A stretch of 64,000 nucleotides of DNA, taken from the NCBI RefSeq assembly GCF_027019125.1, contig NZ_JALUXE010000024.1, positions 98,590-162,589 of the forward strand. Direction: 5' to 3'. The notes below the pieces were generated by a model. That model was given only the letters and a program-made list of their open reading frames with translations, did not search any database and was not told where the DNA came from. Position numbers and translations under genes: made by a program. Shown one piece after another: positions 4-27,703 of this stretch; position 1 is the first letter of the stretch, and each line of letters begins with the position of its first letter. The DNA comes from Roseovarius sp. (GTDB taxonomy: Bacteria; Pseudomonadota; Alphaproteobacteria; Rhodobacterales; Rhodobacteraceae).

Positions 4-2649
4 GTGCTGACACCCCCACCCACAGGCTATGGCCCAGACAAGGTCTTTAACACGACCAAGCGTCTTTCGGCGCAAATACTGCTGGGCCTAATGCTTGTGG
101 CAAGCATCGCGCTGCTCGTCAGCGCGATGGCCTTTCAGCAGCGGCTTGAACACGTCCGCTCGGCCAACACCGACAATGGCGGCTGGGTCGTGGCACAGCT
201 CGAGGTGGACCATCTCGGGTTGATGCAGAAACTTGACGCGGCGGTTCTCACGACACGGCCCGAAGTCACGGCACCGCTCACGGCTGAGACGCTGACCATG
301 GTCAAGCGTGAGTTTGATATATTTTACAGCCGTGTGGACATCTTCAGCTCGACCCTGCAGCGCATGGATGTATCCGATGACCTGCTGGACCGGGTCGAGC
401 GGCTCAAGGTCGTGCGCGAACGTCTCGCCGACAGGATCGATGCGATCGAAGGAGATGATCCAGCGGCACTCGAGGCGTTCCGCACTGCCGTAGATAGCAC
501 CTACCCGATGGTTCGCGACATCACGGTGGCCGGGCTTCAAGAGATCACCGTCGAAACCTCACGCGCCCGCGAAGAGGAGCAGCGCCTCTTTGTGCGCTTT
601 TTCATGCAATCTCTGCTGCTTTTCTGCCTGATGACCATCGGAGCGTTTCTGGCGGTGCGCATCTGGCGCGAGCTGGAACGCCGCACCGCCGAGACAGGGC
701 GCATCGCGGCCATGCTCTCGACTGCTTTCAATTCGACGATGAACGCTGTCATCGTGACCGATCCGAAATCGCGCATCCTCTATAGCAACGACCGCGCACG
801 ACGCCTCTTGGGCTATACTGCCGAAGACCTGCAGACCATGTACGCCGAGGATATCCTGATCTTCGACCCCTCCGTGCCGCGCGACACGGTCGAGGGGCTG
901 ACGCCCCGGAACAAGGCCTCTTTTGTCGCGGCCTGCAGAAGCGCGGTGGGCCGCGAGATTCCGGTGGATTTCTCGATGGTCGAGGATCACGACATTTCAG
1001 GCAATCCCATCGTCATTCTCTTCATCCGGGACATTTCAGCCCAGGTCGAGGCCGAAACCAATCTGCGTGAAGCCCTGGTTCAGGCCAAACAGGCCGCCCG
1101 CGCCAAGAGCATGTTCCTCGCGACCATGAGCCACGAGATGCGCACGCCACTGCATGGGCTGATGGCCTCGCTTTCGTTGATGAACGAAACCGATATGTAT
1201 CCCGAAAACCGCGCTTTGCTGAAAACCGCCCGCGATTGTAGTGCACGGGCGCTCATTCAGATCGACGACGTGCTGGAACTGACCCGCTTGGGTGAGAGCA
1301 CGGAAACGCCCACGTCCTTTAGCCCCGCACGCATCGCCGCCGACATCGTGGACGAGCTGCAACCCCTTGCCAAGAAGTCGAATAACCGGATCGAGCTGAT
1401 CACCCAGGGCGATTTTGATCTGCATCGCCTGGAAGGCTTGCCCAATGCGTTTTCCCGCACGCTCTATAACCTTGCCGGCAATGCCGCGAAATTCACCAAG
1501 AATGGCACCATCACCATCCGGCTTAGCCTGGGTGGTCACGCGCCGGACAACCTCGACCTTACGGTCGAGGTCGAGGATACCGGCATCGGTATCGCACCAG
1601 AAGATCAGAAGCGCATTTTCGAGAGTTTCGAAACTGTCGGCCGCAGCGAGGTGAATTCCGCCATGGGCACGGGCCTCGGCCTGCCGATCGCCAAGCTTGC
1701 GATCGAACGGCAGGGCGGCGTTCTGGGGCTTCACAGCACACCGGGCGTCGGCAGTTGCTTTTTCTTCACCATACCGCTGCGCCTGTCACAAGCGCCGCAA
1801 GAGGACCTAGTTGCTACATCCAATGCGGCCGAAAGCGGCGTTGCGGACACGCCTCGGCGTATCCTCGTCGTCGATGACAATGACATCAACCTGACACTGA
1901 TGACCGAAATGGTCCGACGCATGGGCCATAGCCCAGACGTCGCCATGAACGGTCAAGAAGCGTTGGACAAGGCCACAGCCGAGGCCTTTGACGTGATCCT
2001 GATGGATTTCTCGATGCCGGTGATGGATGGGCCGACATCGGCAAGACTGATCCGCAGCTCCGGCGGACCCTCCGCGCAGTCGGCAATCATCGGGGTGACT
2101 GCCCTTATCGGCGCGCATAGCGGCGACGAACGTGCGGCAGCAATGGACAATATCCTGACCAAGCCCGTAAGCCAGGAGAATCTCGCCCGTGCGATCCGTG
2201 ACACGCGACACCATGAGCGCGCCGCCGTCGAAGCCGCAGAGGACAACACGGACGAGGATGGGGACGAGGAGCTTTTGACCGAGAGCCGCGACGCCGCGAC
2301 CATGCTGCACGATCTGGGCGAGATGGTGGGCCACGACACTGCGTTGCGGCTGGTGCGGACCACGCTAAGCGATGCCGAGGCCGCCTTTGCGGCCATGACC
2401 GATCCAGCGCTCTCGCTCGACGAAAAGGTGTTTATCATCCACAAGGCGGCGGGATCGACCGGGTTTATCGGGCTGGAGGAGCTCACGGAGACCCTGTCGG
2501 AGGCGGAAACCCTCGCACGGGCTGGCACGGATCCCGGCACAAGCGAGCTTGTCCCCGCCGCACGGGCACTGTTGCGAGAGGCCTGTAACGATTTTGCGCC
2601 GCTTCTGCCTGCGCAAGACGGTGCCGATTTGCCGTCAGAGGCAGTCTGA
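4..2649 (+). CDS. Membrane hybrid histidine kinase (PAS-HisKA-HATPase-REC-HPt)
   Basis: An 881-residue phosphorelay sensor. A first membrane helix near residues 24-45, a periplasmic part of about 150 residues and a second helix near 199-220 are followed by a PAS domain (about 235-345). The HisKA box SHEMRTPLHG places the phospho-His at residue 377. The HATPase G-boxes (DTGIGI, GTGLGLPIAK), a receiver (Asp 668 in LMDFSMPVMDG) and a C-terminal HPt (His 813 in HKAAGSTGF) complete an ArcB/BarA-like His-Asp-His chain. The protein begins with GTG at base 4; with three bases upstream the true start may lie outside the window. Its tail overlaps that of convergent fleQ by 15 bases. The signal and the final response regulator are unknown; a flagellar role is only suggested by position. 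Confidence 0.85.
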   Translation: MLTPPPTGYGPDKVFNTTKRLSAQILLGLMLVASIALLVSAMAFQQRLEHVRSANTDNGGWVVAQLEVDHLGLMQKLDAAVLTTRPEVTAPLTAETLTMVKREFDIFYSRVDIFSSTLQRMDVSDDLLDRVERLKVVRERLADRIDAIEGDDPAALEAFRTAVDSTYPMVRDITVAGLQEITVETSRAREEEQRLFVRFFMQSLLLFCLMTIGAFLAVRIWRELERRTAETGRIAAMLSTAFNSTMNAVIVTDPKSRILYSNDRARRLLGYTAEDLQTMYAEDILIFDPSVPRDTVEGLTPRNKASFVAACRSAVGREIPVDFSMVEDHDISGNPIVILFIRDISAQVEAETNLREALVQAKQAARAKSMFLATMSHEMRTPLHGLMASLSLMNETDMYPENRALLKTARDCSARALIQIDDVLELTRLGESTETPTSFSPARIAADIVDELQPLAKKSNNRIELITQGDFDLHRLEGLPNAFSRTLYNLAGNAAKFTKNGTITIRLSLGGHAPDNLDLTVEVEDTGIGIAPEDQKRIFESFETVGRSEVNSAMGTGLGLPIAKLAIERQGGVLGLHSTPGVGSCFFFTIPLRLSQAPQEDLVATSNAAESGVADTPRRILVVDDNDINLTLMTEMVRRMGHSPDVAMNGQEALDKATAEAFDVILMDFSMPVMDGPTSARLIRSSGGPSAQSAIIGVTALIGAHSGDERAAAMDNILTKPVSQENLARAIRDTRHHERAAVEAAEDNTDEDGDEELLTESRDAATMLHDLGEMVGHDTALRLVRTTLSDAEAAFAAMTDPALSLDEKVFIIHKAAGSTGFIGLEELTETLSEAETLARAGTDPGTSELVPAARALLREACNDFAPLLPAQDGADLPSEAV

Positions 2650-3705
2650 CTCGAGCCCCAGCTTCTGCATGCGGCTGATGAGGGTGGTCCGCTTGAGCCG
2701 CAGCATCTCGGCGGCACGGGTGACGCGGCCCTCGCTCAGTTCCAGCGCGGATTGGATCACCTTGACCTCGACCCGCTGCAACATGGTGCGCAGGTCGAGC
2801 GTGCCGCTTTCGGTCAGCATCCCCTTGAGGTCGGTCACGCCCTCGGGCAAGGCCCCGACATCGGGCTCGGGCGTCACGGGGGCAGCCCCGGCAAAGCTCA
2901 GGCGCGGCGCCATGGCGATACGCGCCTCGTCTTCGGTGATGGTGCGGTTGCGGAACAGGATCTGCGCCCGGTCGTGGAAATTGCGCAGTTCGCGCACGTT
3001 GCCCGGCCACTCCTGCGCCATCAGAAACGCCAGCGCACAGGGGGTCAGTTGCAATGTGCTGCCGCCCCGGCTGCCCTGCTCCATCGCCCGAAGGATCTGC
3101 GGAATATCCTCGGCATGTTCGCAAAGGGCGGGCACACAGAGGCTGAACACCTCGATCCGGAACAACAGGTCCTCGCGGAACCGCTTTTGGGCGACTTCCT
3201 GCTGCAAATCGCGATGCGTCGCGCTCAGCAGGCGGAAATTGACCGGGATCGGCGCGCCGCCCCCGACCCGTTGAATGGTCTGGGTTTCGAGCGCACGCAG
3301 CAACTTGACCTGCACATGCAATGGCGTCTCGCCAATCTCATCAAGAAAGAGCGTGCCGCCCTCGGCCTGTTCGATCAGCCCGATCCGCTGCGCCGTGGCG
3401 CCCGTGAACGATCCCTTTTCATGGCCAAAAAGCTCGGATTCCAGCAGGTCAGCGGGAATGGCCCCGCAATTGACCGGGATCATCGGCCCAGTGCGCCCCG
3501 ACATGAGGTGCATCGCATTGGCAACCACTTCCTTGCCCGCGCCGGTCGGTCCGTTGATCAGGACCGGCACATCGCTCGGCGCGATGATGCAGATCGCCTG
3601 CTTCAACCGCCGCATCACCGGCGTATCTCCGACCAGCACTGCATCCAGACGCAGGTCGATGGGAAACTGTTCGGTAATGGAAGAGGTGGGCCAATAACTG
3701 GTCAT
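2635..3705 (-). CDS. fleQ: Sigma54 enhancer-binding protein with Fis HTH, FleQ-like flagellar master activator
   Basis: An AAA+ activator of sigma54 RNA polymerase. Visible are Walker A GPTGAGKE, the sigma54-contact loop GSFTGA, Walker B GGTLFLDEIGE, the REDLLFR arginine-finger region and WPGNVRELRN. A C-terminal Fis-type helix-turn-helix follows (GRVTRAAEMLRLKRTTLISR). There is no receiver domain: the AAA+ core starts within about 30 residues. It is the DNA-binding partner of the HTH-less FleT at 26567; in R. sphaeroides FleQ turns on fleT and then works with FleT on later flagellar promoters, and I infer the same here. The track ORF runs to 3762; I prefer the ATG at 3705 (GGAT about 8 bases ahead), with moderate certainty. 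Confidence 0.88.
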   Translation of the reverse strand: MTSYWPTSSITEQFPIDLRLDAVLVGDTPVMRRLKQAICIIAPSDVPVLINGPTGAGKEVVANAMHLMSGRTGPMIPVNCGAIPADLLESELFGHEKGSFTGATAQRIGLIEQAEGGTLFLDEIGETPLHVQVKLLRALETQTIQRVGGGAPIPVNFRLLSATHRDLQQEVAQKRFREDLLFRIEVFSLCVPALCEHAEDIPQILRAMEQGSRGGSTLQLTPCALAFLMAQEWPGNVRELRNFHDRAQILFRNRTITEDEARIAMAPRLSFAGAAPVTPEPDVGALPEGVTDLKGMLTESGTLDLRTMLQRVEVKVIQSALELSEGRVTRAAEMLRLKRTTLISRMQKLGLESDCL

Positions 3706-3827
3706 GCTACGCGATCCGGTATGCTTAAGGATATACATCCTCAATAGCAGCATCCCGGACATTACCTATGCGTGCAAAAGAAGTCCGCAGATTATCTAAA
3801 GATAAGAAGCGCCCCCTTGGCCACCAC

Positions 3828-5901: not shown

Positions 5902-8900
5902 TCATATCGCTTGCAGCAGGGTGTCGAAGATGGACCGCGCCACGGAAAGAACCTGCGCATTGGCCTGATAAGCCTGTTGCTGTTGCATCAATTGCGCCGC
6001 CTCGGCATCGAGATCGACCCCGCCAAGTTCGGATTCGGCGCGTGCCGCACTCTCGGCCTCGGCCTCGGCGGTAGCGACCCGGTTCTCGCTCGCCGTGACC
6101 TGCGCGCCTGCCCGCTGTTGCAGACTGGCAAAGCCGGTGGCATAGCCGCCCCGCCCGGTCAGCCCATCGCGTTGCCGCAGATTGGCCAGCGATTCGATGC
6201 TGCGCCCGTCCCCGGCCCCGCCGCTGCTGGGCGACAAGAGGTACCGGTCGCCTGTCACGCGCCCGCCCCCCAATGTCACCTCGAGATCGCCAAAACGCGT
6301 GGTGCCTGCGGCATCCAGCGTGCGCGACGCCAGATGTGCGCCGCTCTCGCTGTCAAAGAGGCCCACAAGGCCGGTGGTGGCATCCAGCACCCGCAACTCG
6401 CGCGCGCGCTCGGTGGCGGGGGTGTCGCTGATCTGACCGGCAAGCCGCAAGGCCCCTGTGCCGCCCATGACCACAATCAGATCCTCGTCGGGAATGTTGT
6501 CGAGGCGCAGGACGGAACCACCGCCGCTTGGGATGCTGTCAACCGCCAATACCCGGTCATCCGTGGCCGTCAGACGCAGCGCGCCGCCCTCTGTCACCTC
6601 GGCGCGCAGGCCCAGGGTCTCGAACCCCGCCGCCGCAGCCCCCGGCTGTGCGTCAATCAGCATCTCGCCATCCAGGGCGCTGAACTGGATTTCAACCCGG
6701 CCAAAGGCGGTGTTGATATGGCCCGTGCCGGGGAAGGTTGCGGGCAGCACGACCGCCCCTGCTGATACGCTGACAAAATGCTCCTGCCCGTTCAGCTTGA
6801 TTGTGAAACTTGCGGGCAGGCTGCCCGCGTCGAAGGGCTGACCGATGATGGTCGTCACCGGCGCATTGCCCTGCCCCATGCCAAAGCGCGCCGCCTCGCC
6901 CGCATCGCCCGGCAAACGCAGCGCCGAACCATCGAGCGTGCCGCCTTCGGTTTCGAGGATGAGGCGGTTGTTTTCGTCAAAATGCGCGGTGACGCGGCCC
7001 TCTTCAGGGCCGCTTACCACCGGCACGCCGCCGCTCATGCGGATGGCATAATCCTGCGTCCCAAGGCTCACGCGCATCTGCGCGCCCTCGGGCGGCAACG
7101 CGGTCAGCGCCGCGCCGGTGATCCGGCTGGCCGGGGCCGTTGCGCGCAGGTCCGCGGCCAGCGCCCGCGCCATGGCCGCCCCGGTGCCAAGCGCCGGATC
7201 GGCCTCGGCTGTCACCACGCGGCCATCGGCCCCGGTCACGCTGATCCGCCGCAGGCTCTGATCCCCTGGCCCCGGCTCGGCCGGGGTCAGGGTCACTTGC
7301 GCCCCCGCCGCGCTGGTCTGTCTGGTGATGAGGCCGCTCTCGAACCCATCCGGTGCCGCCACTTGCAAGACACCGTTCTCGGTCACGCCAAAGCCGGCGC
7401 TGCCGCTCAGGCGCACCGTGCCGGAAATCCGCGCCGCATCCGGACCGCCGGCCCCAAGGGTGACCGAGCCCAACGCCGCGCCATCCGGTGCCAGCCGTGT
7501 GAGCGTCACGGGCTCGGACCCGGAATGGGCCACGCGGCTCAGTGAAATATCCGCACCGCTCGCCTCGACCAGCACAAGCCGCCCGCCGTTGGGGGCAAGC
7601 TCGGCGCGGATGCCCGTCGCCCCCGATTGCGCGTTGATCGCCGCTTGCAGCCCCGCCGCACCGACCGCGCCCAGGTCGGCCTCGATCGCCAGGGGTGTCA
7701 GATTCTGCCCCGACAGCCGCAGCGACAGCACGCCACTTGCAGGCACGTCGAGCTCCAGACGGGTTTCCGCCTCGGCGCGCACGGGCAAGGCGGTCGTCAA
7801 TTCCTGCGCGACCCAAGCGGCGTTGGCACCGCCGGGCAGGCGCAGCGTGCTGGATTGCGTGGCCCCCTCGTAACCGATTTCAACGCCTGGGTTGGCCGGG
7901 GCTGGTGTGGTGCCGGTCCAGGTGGCGATCCCGCCCGCCTGCCCCAAGAGCGCCACGTAATCGCCGGTCACGGATTGCCGCGACAGTGTCAGGCCGCCAT
8001 AAGGTGCCGCCCCGTCGAGGTAATCGGCAACATAGGCGGCATCCGTGTAAAACCCGTTCTCAGGCGTCAGCAGTGCTGCGGCCGCGCTCGTCCCCAGAGG
8101 TGGGCCGGAGAGCTGCCGCCCGTCGCGGGTAAAGACGGACAGCACCGCCGCCGGGGCCGCATCCGCGACGACGACACCGGACAGATTGCCCTGATCGGTC
8201 GCGAGGTTGGTCGACAACGGCAAAGACCCGTCGCGCGCCAAGAGCGTCAGCGTATCGCCCACCGCTTCGGCCATAAGGCCAAAGGCGCTCAGGCTCTCGC
8301 CTGCGTCCGTCTGCACAGCGCCGCTGTTGAGCGCCGCTGCCAGGGTCTCGCTCGTCAGGCCTGCGGGCAGCGCGAATTGCGCCACGCCGTCAGGCGCGGT
8401 CAGGCTCAGCGTTTGCGGTACAGCCCCCCCAAGCGGCCCCAGATCCATCGCCGCGTAGCGCGGTTGCACCGACAGCGCCGCCCCGGCATGGCCCGCCGGG
8501 ATCACCCCGACAACGCCCGCGCTCAGAAACTCGACCGGTTCCGCGGTCAAAACCCCGGAAAGGTCCCGCGGGCCGGTCGCCTCGGAGAGAAGCGCGGTCG
8601 CATCCAGCGTGGCGGTGCCACGATTGCCCGGCACGGCGCTCACCGTCAGCGTGCCTGCGGCGGCAATACCTTGCGGATCATTCAGCACCAGCGTCATATG
8701 CCGCGCCGACGCATCCTGCCGCGTCAGGGTGATCCGGTCGCCATCCTGCGGCACGCCGCTCATGTCGATCCGCAATCCCGGCAGGCTCAGGGTCTGTTCA
8801 CCTGTCGCCAGAATCTGCCCCGCCGCATCCCGCGCCTGCCACAGGCCCGTGGGCGCATCCTGCACCAGCGTGAGCGGCCCTTTGGGCATGATACGGGCAT

Positions 8901-9909
8901 CCGTTATGGTGACACTGGCCGCCCCGGTGCCACGCATCAACGCACCCGGCGCCGCCTCCCATCCAGACACGGAAAAGAGTGCCCCGCCGCGCTCGCCCGA
9001 AGGCGTCAGGCCTTGGGAATGCACCGCGTTGATTTCCTCGGCCATCCGGCTGGCCCAGCGGTCAAGATCGGAGGCCGCCTGCGCCATCACGCCAGCCGCA
9101 TCCGCCAGCCCGCCCAGCATTCCGCCACGCAGGCTGGTCTGCACTTCGACCGCCTTGGTATCGGCAGAGGTGACGATATAGCGCCCCGCCGTGCCCTGCT
9201 CTATCCGCCCGGCGCGGCCCCGCTCGAGAACCATCGGCCCGCTGCCATCGGCCCCAAGCCGCACCGTCGCGCGCCCTGCGTCATCCAGCTCGACATCTAT
9301 CGATACAAGTTCCGCCAGATTGACCAAGAGCCGGTCGCGCTGATCCAGCAGGGGATTACGCGCGCGCTCATCGTTCACTTGCGCCAATTGTTCCTGAACA
9401 TCTGCCAGACCGCTCAGAACGGTGTTGACCCGTTCCACGGTTTGCGCGGTCTCGTCCCGCACATTACGCGCGAGAACGTCGATCCCTTCGGCCAGGTCGG
9501 CCACGCCGCTTGCCAGCGCCTCACCCGCACTCAGAACCGCCTGCCGCAACCCCTGGTCCTCGGGCACCTGCGACAGCCCGTCCAGCGCATCGAAAAACCC
9601 ATCCAGCAGATCGGGCAACCGGCCCTCTCCGGGCAAGAGCCGATCCTCCAGTGCCTGCACATGGCTCAGATGGGTCTCTGCCGCCCCCAGCGTGCTCTGG
9701 GCATCGCGGCTGCGCGCGGCCAGCAAACCGTCAAAGGCGCGGCGGATGTCCACCACGTCCACGCCGCCGCCTACGCCCACCTCTTGCATCACCGCATCGC
9801 GGCGACGATAGCCATCGGTGTCGACATTGGCGATATTCTCGCCAGTCACACCAAGGGCTGTGCGATAGGCCAGAACCCCCCCGCGCCCGATGTCCATGAT
9901 GTCGACCAT
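5902..9909 (-). CDS. flgK: Flagellar hook-associated protein FlgK (HAP1), giant form
   Basis: The N-terminus has the axial-protein signature (GVTGENIANVDTDGYRRRD) and the C-terminus ends in the matching helix (QLMQQQQAYQANAQVLSVAR). Between them lies an insert that brings the protein to 1335 residues, against roughly 550 in enteric bacteria. The insert is Gly/Ala/Thr/Leu-rich and beta-strand-like with repeated phrases such as TLTRL and GATGIRAEL, which suggests surface-exposed beta domains on the junction ring. The start at 9909 has AGGAG five bases ahead. flgJ ends three bases before it, so the two are transcribed together. High third-position GC across the whole length argues that the insert is genuine coding sequence. 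Confidence 0.93.
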   Translation of the reverse strand: MVDIMDIGRGGVLAYRTALGVTGENIANVDTDGYRRRDAVMQEVGVGGGVDVVDIRRAFDGLLAARSRDAQSTLGAAETHLSHVQALEDRLLPGEGRLPDLLDGFFDALDGLSQVPEDQGLRQAVLSAGEALASGVADLAEGIDVLARNVRDETAQTVERVNTVLSGLADVQEQLAQVNDERARNPLLDQRDRLLVNLAELVSIDVELDDAGRATVRLGADGSGPMVLERGRAGRIEQGTAGRYIVTSADTKAVEVQTSLRGGMLGGLADAAGVMAQAASDLDRWASRMAEEINAVHSQGLTPSGERGGALFSVSGWEAAPGALMRGTGAASVTITDARIMPKGPLTLVQDAPTGLWQARDAAGQILATGEQTLSLPGLRIDMSGVPQDGDRITLTRQDASARHMTLVLNDPQGIAAAGTLTVSAVPGNRGTATLDATALLSEATGPRDLSGVLTAEPVEFLSAGVVGVIPAGHAGAALSVQPRYAAMDLGPLGGAVPQTLSLTAPDGVAQFALPAGLTSETLAAALNSGAVQTDAGESLSAFGLMAEAVGDTLTLLARDGSLPLSTNLATDQGNLSGVVVADAAPAAVLSVFTRDGRQLSGPPLGTSAAAALLTPENGFYTDAAYVADYLDGAAPYGGLTLSRQSVTGDYVALLGQAGGIATWTGTTPAPANPGVEIGYEGATQSSTLRLPGGANAAWVAQELTTALPVRAEAETRLELDVPASGVLSLRLSGQNLTPLAIEADLGAVGAAGLQAAINAQSGATGIRAELAPNGGRLVLVEASGADISLSRVAHSGSEPVTLTRLAPDGAALGSVTLGAGGPDAARISGTVRLSGSAGFGVTENGVLQVAAPDGFESGLITRQTSAAGAQVTLTPAEPGPGDQSLRRISVTGADGRVVTAEADPALGTGAAMARALAADLRATAPASRITGAALTALPPEGAQMRVSLGTQDYAIRMSGGVPVVSGPEEGRVTAHFDENNRLILETEGGTLDGSALRLPGDAGEAARFGMGQGNAPVTTIIGQPFDAGSLPASFTIKLNGQEHFVSVSAGAVVLPATFPGTGHINTAFGRVEIQFSALDGEMLIDAQPGAAAAGFETLGLRAEVTEGGALRLTATDDRVLAVDSIPSGGGSVLRLDNIPDEDLIVVMGGTGALRLAGQISDTPATERARELRVLDATTGLVGLFDSESGAHLASRTLDAAGTTRFGDLEVTLGGGRVTGDRYLLSPSSGGAGDGRSIESLANLRQRDGLTGRGGYATGFASLQQRAGAQVTASENRVATAEAEAESAARAESELGGVDLDAEAAQLMQQQQAYQANAQVLSVARSIFDTLLQAI

Positions 9910-14072: not shown

Positions 14073-14087
14073 TGGCGCGGTCCTTGC
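14073..14087 (+). promoter_or_regulatory. Sigma54-like site ahead of the FliL-like gene
   Basis: TGGCGC-N5-TTGC, one mismatch from consensus with exact spacing. The predicted transcription start (about 14099) falls on the ATG at 14100, so a message from it would be leaderless. Confidence 0.4.
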
Positions 14088-14099
14088 AGTTTGCCCTGC

Positions 14100-14600
14100 A
14101 TGACCCGGATTTCGCCCCGCCAGCCGCTCATCATCTTTGCCCTGACTGCAAGTCTCGGGCCAATGGCGCTTGGGGCTGCCAGCCTTTGGGTCCTGCGCCA
14201 CACGCCCAGCGTGCCACAGCCAATGGCCGCGACTGCCCCCACGGGCGATGCCCCCGCCGGACCCGAGCCGCGCCGCTATCTGCCGCTCAGCCTGCCGGTG
14301 ACGGTGACTTTGCCAGACGGCGGCGGCACGGTCAGTATCGGCCTGGGTATCGCTCTGCGCGAGGCAGGCAGCATCGAACTCATGGCCCGGCTGGCCGACC
14401 GACAACTCGAGGCACAGGCCGAACTGGCCGATGTCGTGCTGCGCGCCGCCGAGAGCTATCCCGCCGACACCCGCCTCGCGGCGCTGCGCAACACCCTGCC
14501 CGAAACGCTGAAAGAGGCGATGAACGCCCGGCTGATCACCATGAGCGAGGAGCCTGCCATCCTGGAGGTTCTGATACTCGACTGGTCCCACGCCCCCTGA
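14100..14600 (+). CDS. FliL-like single-pass membrane protein
   Basis: A 166-residue bitopic protein: one N-terminal membrane helix (about residues 10-33, IIFALTASLGPMALGAASLW), a Pro/Ala-rich linker, then a periplasmic domain. Strands LPVTVTLPDGG and VSIGLGIAL, helices, and the closing AMNARLITMSEEPAILEVLI give a FliL-like pattern. FliL supports stators around the motor. R. sphaeroides Fla1 also has MotF, a bitopic protein needed for rotation; this gene could be that instead, and I cannot separate the two by eye. The track ORF begins at 13962, but the first ATG that gives a sensible membrane topology is at 14100. Confidence 0.6.
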   Translation: MTRISPRQPLIIFALTASLGPMALGAASLWVLRHTPSVPQPMAATAPTGDAPAGPEPRRYLPLSLPVTVTLPDGGGTVSIGLGIALREAGSIELMARLADRQLEAQAELADVVLRAAESYPADTRLAALRNTLPETLKEAMNARLITMSEEPAILEVLILDWSHAP

Positions 14601-14601
14601 T

Positions 14602-14616
14602 TGGCAGGCTTCTTGC
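14602..14616 (+). promoter_or_regulatory. Sigma54 promoter ahead of the 48-residue ORF
   Basis: TGGCAGGCTTCTTGC is TGGCAG-N5-TTGC, one mismatch in the -24 box and correct spacing. Predicted transcription from about 14628 leaves 28 bases to the ATG at 14656, matching the leader lengths of flgG and fleT. Confidence 0.7.
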
Positions 14617-14655
14617 ATCCCCGAGACATATACCAAGCCCGTGAAAGGACATCCC

Positions 14656-14802
14656 ATGATCTCCATGCGCCAGACCTTCATTCCCGCCCCCGGCACCGAT
14701 CCGCACAAACTGGGTGTGGAACTCGTGATCTGCGACGAAAATGGCGAACCGCGGCGTCAGCATGTCTGGGGTCTGGTGCGCTTGCTGCGCCGCCTCTGCT
14801 AA
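14656..14802 (+). CDS. 48-residue protein with its own sigma54 promoter, unknown function
   Basis: Too short for the ORF track. The frame runs MISMRQTFIPAPGTDPHK through DENGEPRRQHVWGLVRLLRRLC to a TAA. AAAGGA lies seven bases before the ATG, and a good sigma54 promoter lies 40 bases upstream of it, so transcription and translation signals agree. It has no signal peptide or membrane helix, a basic C-terminal helix and a terminal Cys. The likely setting is the flagellar regulon. I recognise no family; it could be a small regulator, a chaperone or an export substrate. Confidence 0.55.
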   Translation: MISMRQTFIPAPGTDPHKLGVELVICDENGEPRRQHVWGLVRLLRRLC

Positions 14803-14823: not shown

Positions 14824-15045
14824 TCAGCGCGGCTGCCGCAGGTGCTGCCGAAGGCGCGTCGCAAAAGCAACAGTGCCGACCCCGAGGATCCCCCAACCTA
14901 TCGTCAGCGGCGCGGGCATCAGCCCGGCCACCGCCGTGGCCCATCCGGGTTGCAGGTAGATCCCTGCGATCAACCCGCCCGCAATCGTCAGAAACATGCG
15001 CAGCTTGAGGCAGGTGGCGCAGGTCTGTTCCTGCCTGCCCGCCAT
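14824..15045 (-). CDS. Small two-helix membrane protein with CATC motif
   Basis: A 73-residue protein: a short basic N-terminus with TCATCLK, a first hydrophobic helix (MFLTIAGGLIAGIYL) and a second (APLTIGWGILGVGTVAFA), then a basic tail. The two cysteines just before the first helix could bind a metal or haem, or form a disulphide. Its ATG overlaps the stop of the preceding gene (TGATG), so it is the last gene of the fliS group. No name is recognised. Confidence 0.55.
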   Translation of the reverse strand: MAGRQEQTCATCLKLRMFLTIAGGLIAGIYLQPGWATAVAGLMPAPLTIGWGILGVGTVAFATRLRQHLRQPR

Positions 15046-15374
15046 CAGCGCGGCCCAGCCTTGCGATCGCAGTTCAGATAGACAAGATTTGCCCGGCCGC
15101 GCCCCGCGCGCTGCGCCGCCTTGGCCGACAGCATATCGGCGGTGCGCCGCACCGCATCGAGCGCCTCGGCAAGGATCGTGATGCGATCCTGTGCGCCATC
15201 TTCAGACAAGGACGCCCCCCCCACCAGCGCAATGACCGCGCAGCGCAGGGCATGATCGGCGCGCGACACAGCCGCCAGATCCCCTGTTTCTGCCGCCGCG
15301 ACCAGCGCCGCCGTCAAGTTTCGGATCTGGTCGCCAAGAAGGCTGTAGGTCATTTGCTGCACCACACGTGTCAT
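15045..15374 (-). CDS. Small helical protein downstream of fliS, FliT-like in position
   Basis: A 109-residue, mostly helical protein (MTRVVQQMTYSLLGDQIRNL, DLAAVSRADHALRCAVIAL, ILAEALDAVRRTADMLSA) overlapping fliS by four bases (ATGA) and the next gene by one. In many bacteria the gene after fliS is fliT, a short helical export chaperone, and this could be its counterpart, but the sequence alone does not show FliT similarity that I would trust. Confidence 0.5.
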   Translation of the reverse strand: MTRVVQQMTYSLLGDQIRNLTAALVAAAETGDLAAVSRADHALRCAVIALVGGASLSEDGAQDRITILAEALDAVRRTADMLSAKAAQRAGRGRANLVYLNCDRKAGPR

Positions 15375-15769
15375 ACCGCCTGCGCCTTGACCTGCGACCC
15401 GATTTGTTGCCAGGCGTCCAGAATGTCACCCATGGCAGCGGCAGCCTCTGCCAGGCGCGCGCCCTCTTCGCCGCGCATCGCCTTGAGCACGTGAAACCGC
15501 GCGAATTCATAAAGCTGGAAAAGATCCCCCGCCAGATCGCCGCCTGCCTCGAAATCGAGACTCGATTGCAGGATATAGATCGCGGTCAGAACCCGGTTGA
15601 CGTGGTCCGCCGGCAACGGGCGCGCCTCTTGTTGGGTGCGCGCCAAGACACCGAGTGAGCGGTTGAGTTCACGCAACGTGACAAAAACGATGTCATAGGG
15701 ATCGGTTGCCGCTTCCTGCACGAGGGTCTCGGCCTGACGGTAACGGGAACGGGCGAAGGCGAAACTCAT
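15371..15769 (-). CDS. fliS: Flagellin export chaperone FliS
   Basis: A 132-residue helical bundle. The FliS signature is clear: ATDPYDIVFVTLRELNRSLG near the start, then IYILQSSLDFEAGGDLAG and LFQLYEFARFHVLKA. FliS binds the C-terminus of flagellin in the cytoplasm and keeps it unfolded for export; no flagellin gene is in the window. The start is the ATG at 15769 with AAAGGAAG five bases ahead; the track adds six residues that in fact contain the ribosome site. It heads a three-gene overlapping set just after cheA. Confidence 0.85.
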   Translation of the reverse strand: MSFAFARSRYRQAETLVQEAATDPYDIVFVTLRELNRSLGVLARTQQEARPLPADHVNRVLTAIYILQSSLDFEAGGDLAGDLFQLYEFARFHVLKAMRGEEGARLAEAAAAMGDILDAWQQIGSQVKAQAV

Positions 15770-15834
15770 CGAAACTTCCTTTGACATGATTGCCAGATCT
15801 GTTTGTCAAAACGGCAAATCGCGTCAGGATGTTA

Positions 15835-25892: not shown

Positions 25893-26201
25893 TCAGGCGG
25901 CATCTTCGGTGTTTCCATCGAAATTGAAGATACAGACTCCTTCGAATCCCGTAGATCGAAAGAGAAAGGTCTTCTTCATAGTCTGGATGAAGCCCCCGTG
26001 TTTCTTTTCGAAGTTCTTGAGATCCGCGATGGTCGGGAAGAACAGGTTTACAGAAATGTCACCCTCCTTGCCGATCATCACCGTCAAACCGGAGATCCGA
26101 CATTCCGGAATCGCATTCCCCAGAATCTCCGTGATGAAAGGGGCCGCGATCTGTGCCGCATCGAGGCTTGGAAACTTGAGATGATACGTTTTCGATAACA
26201 T
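25893..26201 (-). CDS. 102-residue protein of unknown function between fleT and the che operon
   Basis: An alpha/beta protein (MLSKTYHLKFPSLDAAQIA, ECRISGLTVMIGKEGDISVN, LFFPTIADLKNFEKKH), ending in the acidic EDAA. It has no signal peptide or membrane segment. The ATG at 26201 follows GGTAGG; the track start at 26276 adds 25 residues of poor composition. It lies just upstream of the che promoter on the same strand and divergent from fleT, an exclusively flagellar setting. Its GC content is visibly lower than that of its neighbours. I recognise no family. Confidence 0.6.
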   Translation of the reverse strand: MLSKTYHLKFPSLDAAQIAAPFITEILGNAIPECRISGLTVMIGKEGDISVNLFFPTIADLKNFEKKHGGFIQTMKKTFLFRSTGFEGVCIFNFDGNTEDAA

Positions 26202-26566
26202 TTGTTGCCTACCAGTTGAGCTCTTCTGACTCCCCAAACGGACCCTTCCCCAAAAATGTGAGCGCTCAGGCGACATATCCTCCGAGTATCTTTAGATGGA
26301 GGCGGCTCGCTTTTGGCGCGAACCCGCACTGAAAGTGCTGGCCTGCACAAAGGACAGCATCCGCACTCCTGCCGACTGACGAAGCCTCGACACACGACAG
26401 TCGACACCCGCCCTTTTCGTCGGAGTTGCGACGTTTTTCTGGCGCAACCGGCCGGGTTGCCCCGCGAAATCACGCTTTCGGGCCAATCCGGGGCAAAAAT
26501 GCCCGCAAAACCCGTCTGGCACGATCCCTGCTTACACATTTCATATCGCAATCAACGAGGTTTCCC
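26202..26566 (+). promoter_or_regulatory. Divergent control region between the 102-residue gene and fleT
   Basis: A 365-base gene-free stretch. It holds the fleT sigma54 promoter (separate entry) and an inverted repeat GCAACC/GGTTGC at 26444-26460, 57 bases ahead of that promoter and therefore a possible activator site. A TGAGCGCTCA palindrome lies at 26259-26268. ORFs called here are not convincing. Confidence 0.5.
26517..26531 (+). promoter_or_regulatory. Sigma54 promoter of fleT-fliEFGHIJ
   Basis: TGGCACGATCCCTGC: a perfect -24 box, five-base spacer and a -12 box with one mismatch (CTGC) keeping the key GC. A start near 26542 leaves about 25 bases before the fleT ATG. In R. sphaeroides this promoter depends on FleQ alone. 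Confidence 0.82.
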
Positions 26567-27703
26567 ATGGCCGACATCTGCATCACCGCCGCGAATTTCC
26601 CTCAGGCACAGGCCCTCAAGGCGCTGCTCGACGGGCGCCGTCTGAATGTCCGCATCGGCTATCAGCCCACCTGTCACACGCTTGTTCAGGGCGCACCCGT
26701 GACCGACCAGCGCGCGCTGGTGGAACTGGCCCGCAAGCTGGGGGCGAAACGCATCGTGGTGGTCGAAGGTCAGGCCGCAGAATTTGCCCTGCGCGAGGAT
26801 CTGGGCGGGCGCATGCTGACCGTATCGCTGCCCGATAGCGGCCTGCCCGCCCTGCGCGATGCCGCTCTGATGGCCCTGGCCGATCTCTTGGCTGCGCCCT
26901 TTGGCACCATGGTTGCCGCAGATCCGAACTCGGGTGCCCTCATTGATATGGCCCGCCGCGTCGCCCGCTTTGACGTCAGCGTCTTTATCAACGGCCCCAC
27001 CGGCAGCGGCAAGGAAGTGCTGTCGCGCCTGATCCACGCGGCTTCGCCCCGCGCCGACAAACCCTTTGTTGCGATCAACTGCGCCGCTATCCCCGAGAAC
27101 ATGCTCGAAGCGCTGCTCTTCGGACATGAAAAAGGGGCCTTCACCGGCGCCAACACCGCCAACAAGGGCTATCTGCGCGCCGCTGACGGTGGCACGCTGC
27201 TGCTTGATGAGATTTCCGAAATGCCGATGGCGCTTCAGGCCAAACTCCTCCGTGTCATTCAGGAAAAGGTCGTGACCCCGTTGGGCAGCCAGGCCGAAAC
27301 CCCGGTTGATGTGCGCATCCTCGCCACTTCCAACCGCGACATGGAGAGCGAAATCGCACGCGGCACCTTCCGCGAAGACCTCTATTACCGCCTCAACGTG
27401 TTCCCGCTGGAAACGCTGGCCTTGTCAGCGCGTCCGCAGGATGTTCCGGTGCTGGCCCAAGCGATGCTGCGCCGCCACACGCCCGAAGGACTGCCGACGC
27501 CGCTTTTGTCGCCCGAGGCTTGCGACATCCTTACCGGCCATTCCTGGCCCGGCAATGTGCGCGAGCTGGAAAACGTCATGCAGCGCGCGCTGGTTCTGGC
27601 CGATGGCATGGTGATTGCACCTGAACATATCATGCTTGTTGCCCGCCCCACCTCTCTGTCCGCCGCGCGCCCCGCCGCAGTATTCACCTCTCTCGCCGCC
27701 TGA
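26567..27703 (+). CDS. fleT: Sigma54 activator without DNA-binding domain, FleT
   Basis: A 378-residue AAA+ activator. An N-terminal domain of about 110 residues (MADICITAANFPQAQALKAL) has no receiver or PAS motif. The core is complete: Walker A GPTGSGKE, GAFTGA, GGTLLLDEISE, REDLYYR and WPGNVRELEN. The protein ends some 35 residues later in low-complexity Ala/Ser with no Fis helix-turn-helix. This is the hallmark of R. sphaeroides FleT, which reaches DNA only as a partner of FleQ. The ATG at 26567 follows ACGAGG; the longer track start is unsupported. fliE starts 12 bases downstream. Confidence 0.9.
   Translation: MADICITAANFPQAQALKALLDGRRLNVRIGYQPTCHTLVQGAPVTDQRALVELARKLGAKRIVVVEGQAAEFALREDLGGRMLTVSLPDSGLPALRDAALMALADLLAAPFGTMVAADPNSGALIDMARRVARFDVSVFINGPTGSGKEVLSRLIHAASPRADKPFVAINCAAIPENMLEALLFGHEKGAFTGANTANKGYLRAADGGTLLLDEISEMPMALQAKLLRVIQEKVVTPLGSQAETPVDVRILATSNRDMESEIARGTFREDLYYRLNVFPLETLALSARPQDVPVLAQAMLRRHTPEGLPTPLLSPEACDILTGHSWPGNVRELENVMQRALVLADGMVIAPEHIMLVARPTSLSAARPAAVFTSLAA

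Follow-up and report, generated by a model that had tools for sequence, protein, structure and literature searches.

The Fla1 flagellum of R. sphaeroides represents the textbook single-flagellum motor, and systems of its type, named fla3-type in a survey, were found in 23 of 306 Rhodobacterales (PMC11974857). The motor of this horizontally acquired flagellum has FliL and MotF as accessory proteins, MotF being also limited to some Rhodobacteraceae (PMC7277832). R. sphaeroides holds in addition a run of hypothetical genes, RSP_6086-6092, several of which rise with the flagellar genes in RNA-seq (PMC9779115). System-specific proteins are likewise known from the fla1-type (CtrA) flagellum of Rhodobacterales, where CP1-CP4 are essential for motility (PMC11974857), while in H. 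pylori the RpoN-dependent protein HP1076 is a lineage-specific partner of FliS (PMC7248283).

Here, a 48-codon gene (smORF) from a flagellar cluster of Roseovarius sp. is compared with these systems; the window refers to the whole stretch of 64,000 nucleotides that was analysed. As with MotF and FliL, the smORF would encode an accessory protein of the same flagellum; unlike them, both membrane proteins, its product shows no membrane segment. It shares with CP1-CP4 the condition of an uncharacterised, system-specific protein, although these belong to the CtrA-type system only, whereas the smORF lies in a sigma54-type cluster. Like HP1076, it would be a lineage-restricted, RpoN-dependent small protein with a tie to FliS, which for the smORF consists of gene linkage only. 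However, HP1076 is a helix bundle with a flagellin-like topology, while the smORF product is predicted to be all-beta, and a profile search of PDB sequences, HP1076 included, returned no match to the smORF family. HP1076 may thus be regarded as a structurally unrelated precedent for a FliS-linked reading. FlgM is another small protein of the flagellar cluster, but it holds a PF04316 domain that the smORF product does not match. As for R. sphaeroides itself, RSP_6086-6092 may include a smORF orthologue. The parts list of Fla1 appears incomplete: beside fliS lie genes for a conserved, sigma54-driven small protein and for another protein like FliL, both without a family model.

Genomic context of the small ORF

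The features of the locus and of the cluster to which it belongs are the following (coordinates are those of the window, or of L097 where indicated):

2635-3762, minus strand: second sigma54 activator, with HTH, FleQ-like (PF00158, E=6e-63, plus PF02954)
14100-14600, plus strand: UP, FliL-like bitopic protein of 166 aa (hhalign to FliL, E=1e-6; fold match)
14602-14617, plus strand: sigma54 (-24/-12) promoter TGGCAGGCTTCTTGCA, exact consensus, core invariant in four Roseovarius
14644-14649, plus strand: Shine-Dalgarno-like AAAGGA, 6 nt 5' of the smORF ATG, invariant across four Roseovarius species
14656-14802, plus strand: smORF, 48-codon gene of the flagellar cluster (dN/dS and a profile family in 14 genera)
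14824-15045, minus strand: memb, 73-aa membrane protein with a CxxC near its N-terminus, convergent with the smORF and found beside most smORFs
15045-15374, minus strand: FliT-like 109-aa protein of tentative identity, conserved, adjoining FliS
15371-15787, minus strand: FliS, flagellin export chaperone (PF02561, E=2.9e-12)
26426-27703, plus strand: sigma54 activator of the FleT type (PF00158, E=3e-66), ahead of fliE-J, then fliE (PF02049)
L097:2201-2527, minus strand: FlgM, anti-sigma28 factor (PF04316, E=2e-13)
L097:15695-17017: rpoN, in the flagellar cluster
L097:17744-18439, minus strand: MotF-like gene of this genome, separate from UP

The cluster, which also encodes FliA, is of the FleQ/FleT-RpoN type and corresponds to Fla1 of R. 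sphaeroides (PMC7277832). UP and the smORF form a plus-strand island between two minus-strand groups, flgG..flgL with Sel1 and NHase-like genes on one side and memb, the FliT-like gene, fliS and cheA on the other; the initial annotation had placed the flanking flagellar groups on different strands, which is corrected here. The stop codons of the convergent smORF and memb lie about 20 nt apart. Neither memb nor the FliT-like protein has a Pfam match over the cut-off; one relative of memb matches DsbB weakly (E 0.02).

Evidence for a protein-coding gene

The initial annotation had described a 48-codon ORF preceded by AAAGGA and by a sigma54 promoter, and these elements were recovered at the same places and in the same order. 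The product has 48 residues (MISMRQTFIPAPGTDPHKLGVELVICDENGEPRRQHVWGLVRLLRRLC*). Among the 85 genomes of the genus, four carry the smORF, with 92-96% identical proteins, and the same four hold a close copy of UP. Conservation in close relatives, on which the first proposal depended, was indeed observed, as promoter, AAAGGA and frame are kept in the three other Roseovarius species together with UP. In the Roseovarius alignment the remaining leader positions are variable.

The comparison of synonymous and nonsynonymous changes that had been suggested as a check yields pairwise dN/dS values of 0.03-0.12 in the smORF frame for the four Roseovarius, versus 0.13-0.24 for UP. Variable columns fall mostly at third codon positions (19 of 26), with none at second positions. 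Because the low values are confined to this frame, the remaining five giving about 0.17 to >1, the coding signal is above chance, and the smORF is almost certainly a real protein-coding gene.

A family of small proteins in sigma54-type flagellar clusters

A single-sequence search with the smORF found the four Roseovarius copies only. Its relatives emerged by reading 3' of FliL-like genes and then building a profile: in five genera with distant copies of UP, a small ORF lies immediately 3' of each. When a six-sequence profile was run over 397 Rhodobacteraceae genomes, drawn about one per genus, these ORFs were matched at E 1e-18 to 1e-23 and more appeared in flagellar loci, to which all strong small-ORF matches belong without exception. 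A second round on the loci around fliS, which is biased towards that neighbourhood, added G283 and G153 by profile, after which G307 and G397 were recognised from the promoter and the core together.

In total, the family comprises 14 genera and 21 genomes of Rhodobacteraceae. Each of the five genomes in the genus of G159, which resembles Cereibacter, carries a copy, and the sequence in this genus is MSIELQQSAPAFRRPPPVPEAVGAPLEGLMVETVHFDEDGREARRTRRPLHALLAPLRLRRA. Members span about 40-66 codons and share the core hxVExVxxDxxGxxxxRxxxxLxxLL, whereas the N-terminus and the tail vary freely. Two features that had drawn attention in the first description, a terminal Cys and a basic tail, occur in this sequence and in its three Roseovarius orthologues; they are not family features, as they are not kept in the other genera, the Cys being exclusive to Roseovarius among the 14 genera. 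A class-wide profile search gave chance-level matches only, and tblastn against plasmids gave none. The case shows that a promoter signature, joined to a tiny core profile, brings out small genes of the kind apt to be hidden by length cut-offs.

The most constant neighbour is fliS, present beside the smORF in 14/14 genera, on the opposite strand in most of them. In G283 and G153, on the contrary, the order is UP-smORF-fliS on one strand, with a smORF-fliS gap of 93-99 nt. The FliT-like gene, like memb, lies beside the smORF in most of the 14 genera. Genomes bearing fliS amount to 27/397, similar to the 23/306 of the survey (PMC11974857). Among the genomes searched, sequence matches show the family restricted to the sigma54-type flagellar cluster. 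Since no recognisable copy was found near fliS in 13 of the 27 fliS-bearing genera, the smORF is not required by every flagellum of the fliS type; in these genera the gene may have been lost, moved elsewhere, or diverged too far to be recognised. As a separate observation, a 39-aa ORF with a sigma54-like site lies between tandem fliS copies in G199 (L130, 2754-2944, plus strand) and is possibly a diverged member.

The sigma54 promoter

The -24 side of the smORF promoter abuts the UP stop codon. Exact TGGCAN6TTGCA sites occur four times in the 64-kb window versus 0.11 expected from shuffles, all of them within the flagellar cluster (e.g., 5' of flgG and 5' of fliE), so the smORF promoter is not a chance match. 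Across the family, GGC-N7-TTGC is found 42-85 nt 5' of the smORF start in 20/21 genomes and 13/14 genera, the background rate being 0.03 per 100 nt; the element precedes the smORF in 11 of the 12 genera that were detected without a promoter criterion. The only genus without it is G135, where the ORF follows close behind the stop codon of the upstream gene. With a conserved promoter of correct -24/-12 spacing, in a cluster that encodes rpoN and two activators, the smORF is judged from these signals to be a genuine sigma54-controlled gene of a FleQ/FleT-type flagellar cluster. The earlier suggestion of an undescribed flagellar small protein is supported.

The upstream gene, a probable second FliL

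The best PDB matches of the AF2 model of UP are the FliL structures 6ahp/6ahq (prob 1.0, E 1.3e-3). Because its model fits FliL structures best, UP is a probable second FliL; against PF03748 it reaches E 0.07 in only two of seven members, below the Pfam cut-off. About 10 residues of the protein precede the membrane helix as its cytoplasmic part. UP lies beside the smORF in 10/14 genera, mostly directly upstream on the same strand and divergently in one, and it is missing or undetected in G369, G397, G307 and G138, the stretches of the last three being short. An identity of UP with MotF was rejected, given that a MotF-like gene follows flhB in G159 and is separate in this genome (PMC7277832, PMC9779115). 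A possible sigma54 site at 14073-14087 is also seen very near the UP ATG, and the UP mRNA could be leaderless.

Predicted fold and excluded identities

Searches of Pfam, NCBIfam and PDB sequences detected no relative of the smORF family above chance. The FlgM identity was discarded: in a Pfam scan neither the 48-aa protein nor any of the 11 members scanned matched PF04316, and the cluster has its FlgM gene at another place. From an alignment of two sequences, AlphaFold predicted three strands (pLDDT 70, pTM 0.42), which suggests with modest confidence a beta-hairpin or a three-stranded sheet; Foldseek with this model returned no significant fold match.

The first beta-hairpin of the WYL domain shares a local pattern with the smORF family (V-x-h-x-Y/F-x-D-x-x-G...R...P-L), and hhalign scored 31-35 for two selected WYL proteins versus <=17 for window proteins. 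The likeness, however, spans only about 28 residues, has no Pfam match, and largely fades in an unselected WYL set, with scores of 9-21. Together with the absence of matches to the WYL model PF13280 among the members scanned, this leaves membership of the WYL family unsupported, and the hairpin likeness is better treated as a lead than as kinship.

Proposed role and alternative explanations

The best explanation as a whole, with a probability of about 0.8, is that the smORF encodes a cytoplasmic accessory protein of this flagellum from the sigma54 phase, the partner of which would most likely belong to a FliS/FliT-like step. The flagellar label draws on location, promoter and co-occurrence, and a role in the flagellum is highly probable. 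The gene would be expressed midway through flagellum assembly, in the sigma54 phase, and its product, in which neither a signal peptide nor a membrane segment is visible, would stay in the cytoplasm as a small accessory protein acting by partner binding. An export-chaperone step of the FliS/FliT type is favoured as the likeliest partner since no other gene accompanies the smORF as constantly as fliS, and since in two genera the smORF lies directly ahead of fliS on the same strand, downstream of one sigma54 promoter. A mechanistic link to the FliS step in particular is nonetheless put forward only tentatively. Against this explanation count the opposite strand of fliS in most genera, the missing promoter in G135, the 13 fliS-bearing genera with no recognisable copy, the neighbourhood bias of the second search round and the weak structure model.

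Ranking close behind this FliS-linked reading is a role on the motor side, also rather doubtful, in which the protein would be a partner of UP and take part in stator activation in the manner of the Fla1 proteins FliL and MotF (PMC7277832). The adjacency of UP in 10 of the 14 genera and its FliL-like fold argue for it, but UP is missing or undetected beside the smORF in the four genera named above (in three of them within short stretches), and a protein without an export signal would find only about 10 cytoplasmic residues of UP to contact. Small size, the basic tail, the nearby cheA and the sigma54 promoter would also suit a regulator of flagellar expression or chemotaxis, such as a small anti-activator, a CheA adaptor or an anti-sigma type of protein, to which the weak WYL hairpin likeness of the two selected proteins could be added. 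This appears unlikely, as the anti-sigma28 factor FlgM is already encoded elsewhere in the cluster and the WYL scores drop on the unselected set, with no match to the WYL model among the members scanned. A small RNA or a leader as the true product of the sigma54 promoter, with only an incidental ORF, is very improbable: the ORF is short, diverged and convergent with memb, its stop lying about 20 nt from that of memb, but the dN/dS of 0.03-0.12, the third-position bias and the purine-rich, ribosome-site-like stretch 5' of the start codon all speak for a protein gene, and across the 14 genera the amino-acid profile is kept while the DNA is not.

Beyond the preferred role of a cytoplasmic accessory protein, the balance tips slightly towards a new family of small beta-hairpin proteins, present in R. 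sphaeroides as well, that would serve the sigma54-type flagellum acquired horizontally in Rhodobacteraceae, and no other, as its dedicated partner in regulation or assembly, acting either on FliS/flagellin export or on the second FliL at the motor.

Other genes of the cluster

Three further genes of the minus strand deserve mention. At 25893-26276, between cheA and the FleT-like activator, lies a gene for a conserved protein without a Pfam match, 76% identical to that of G159 over 101 aa. The FlgK-like protein encoded at 5902-9909 is, at 1335 residues, unusually large among hook-associated proteins. Finally, the NHase-alpha-like gene at 13603-14004 matches PF02979 at the cut-off (E 3e-6), and its product recurs regularly in these flagellar clusters, with about 46-60% identity between genera.
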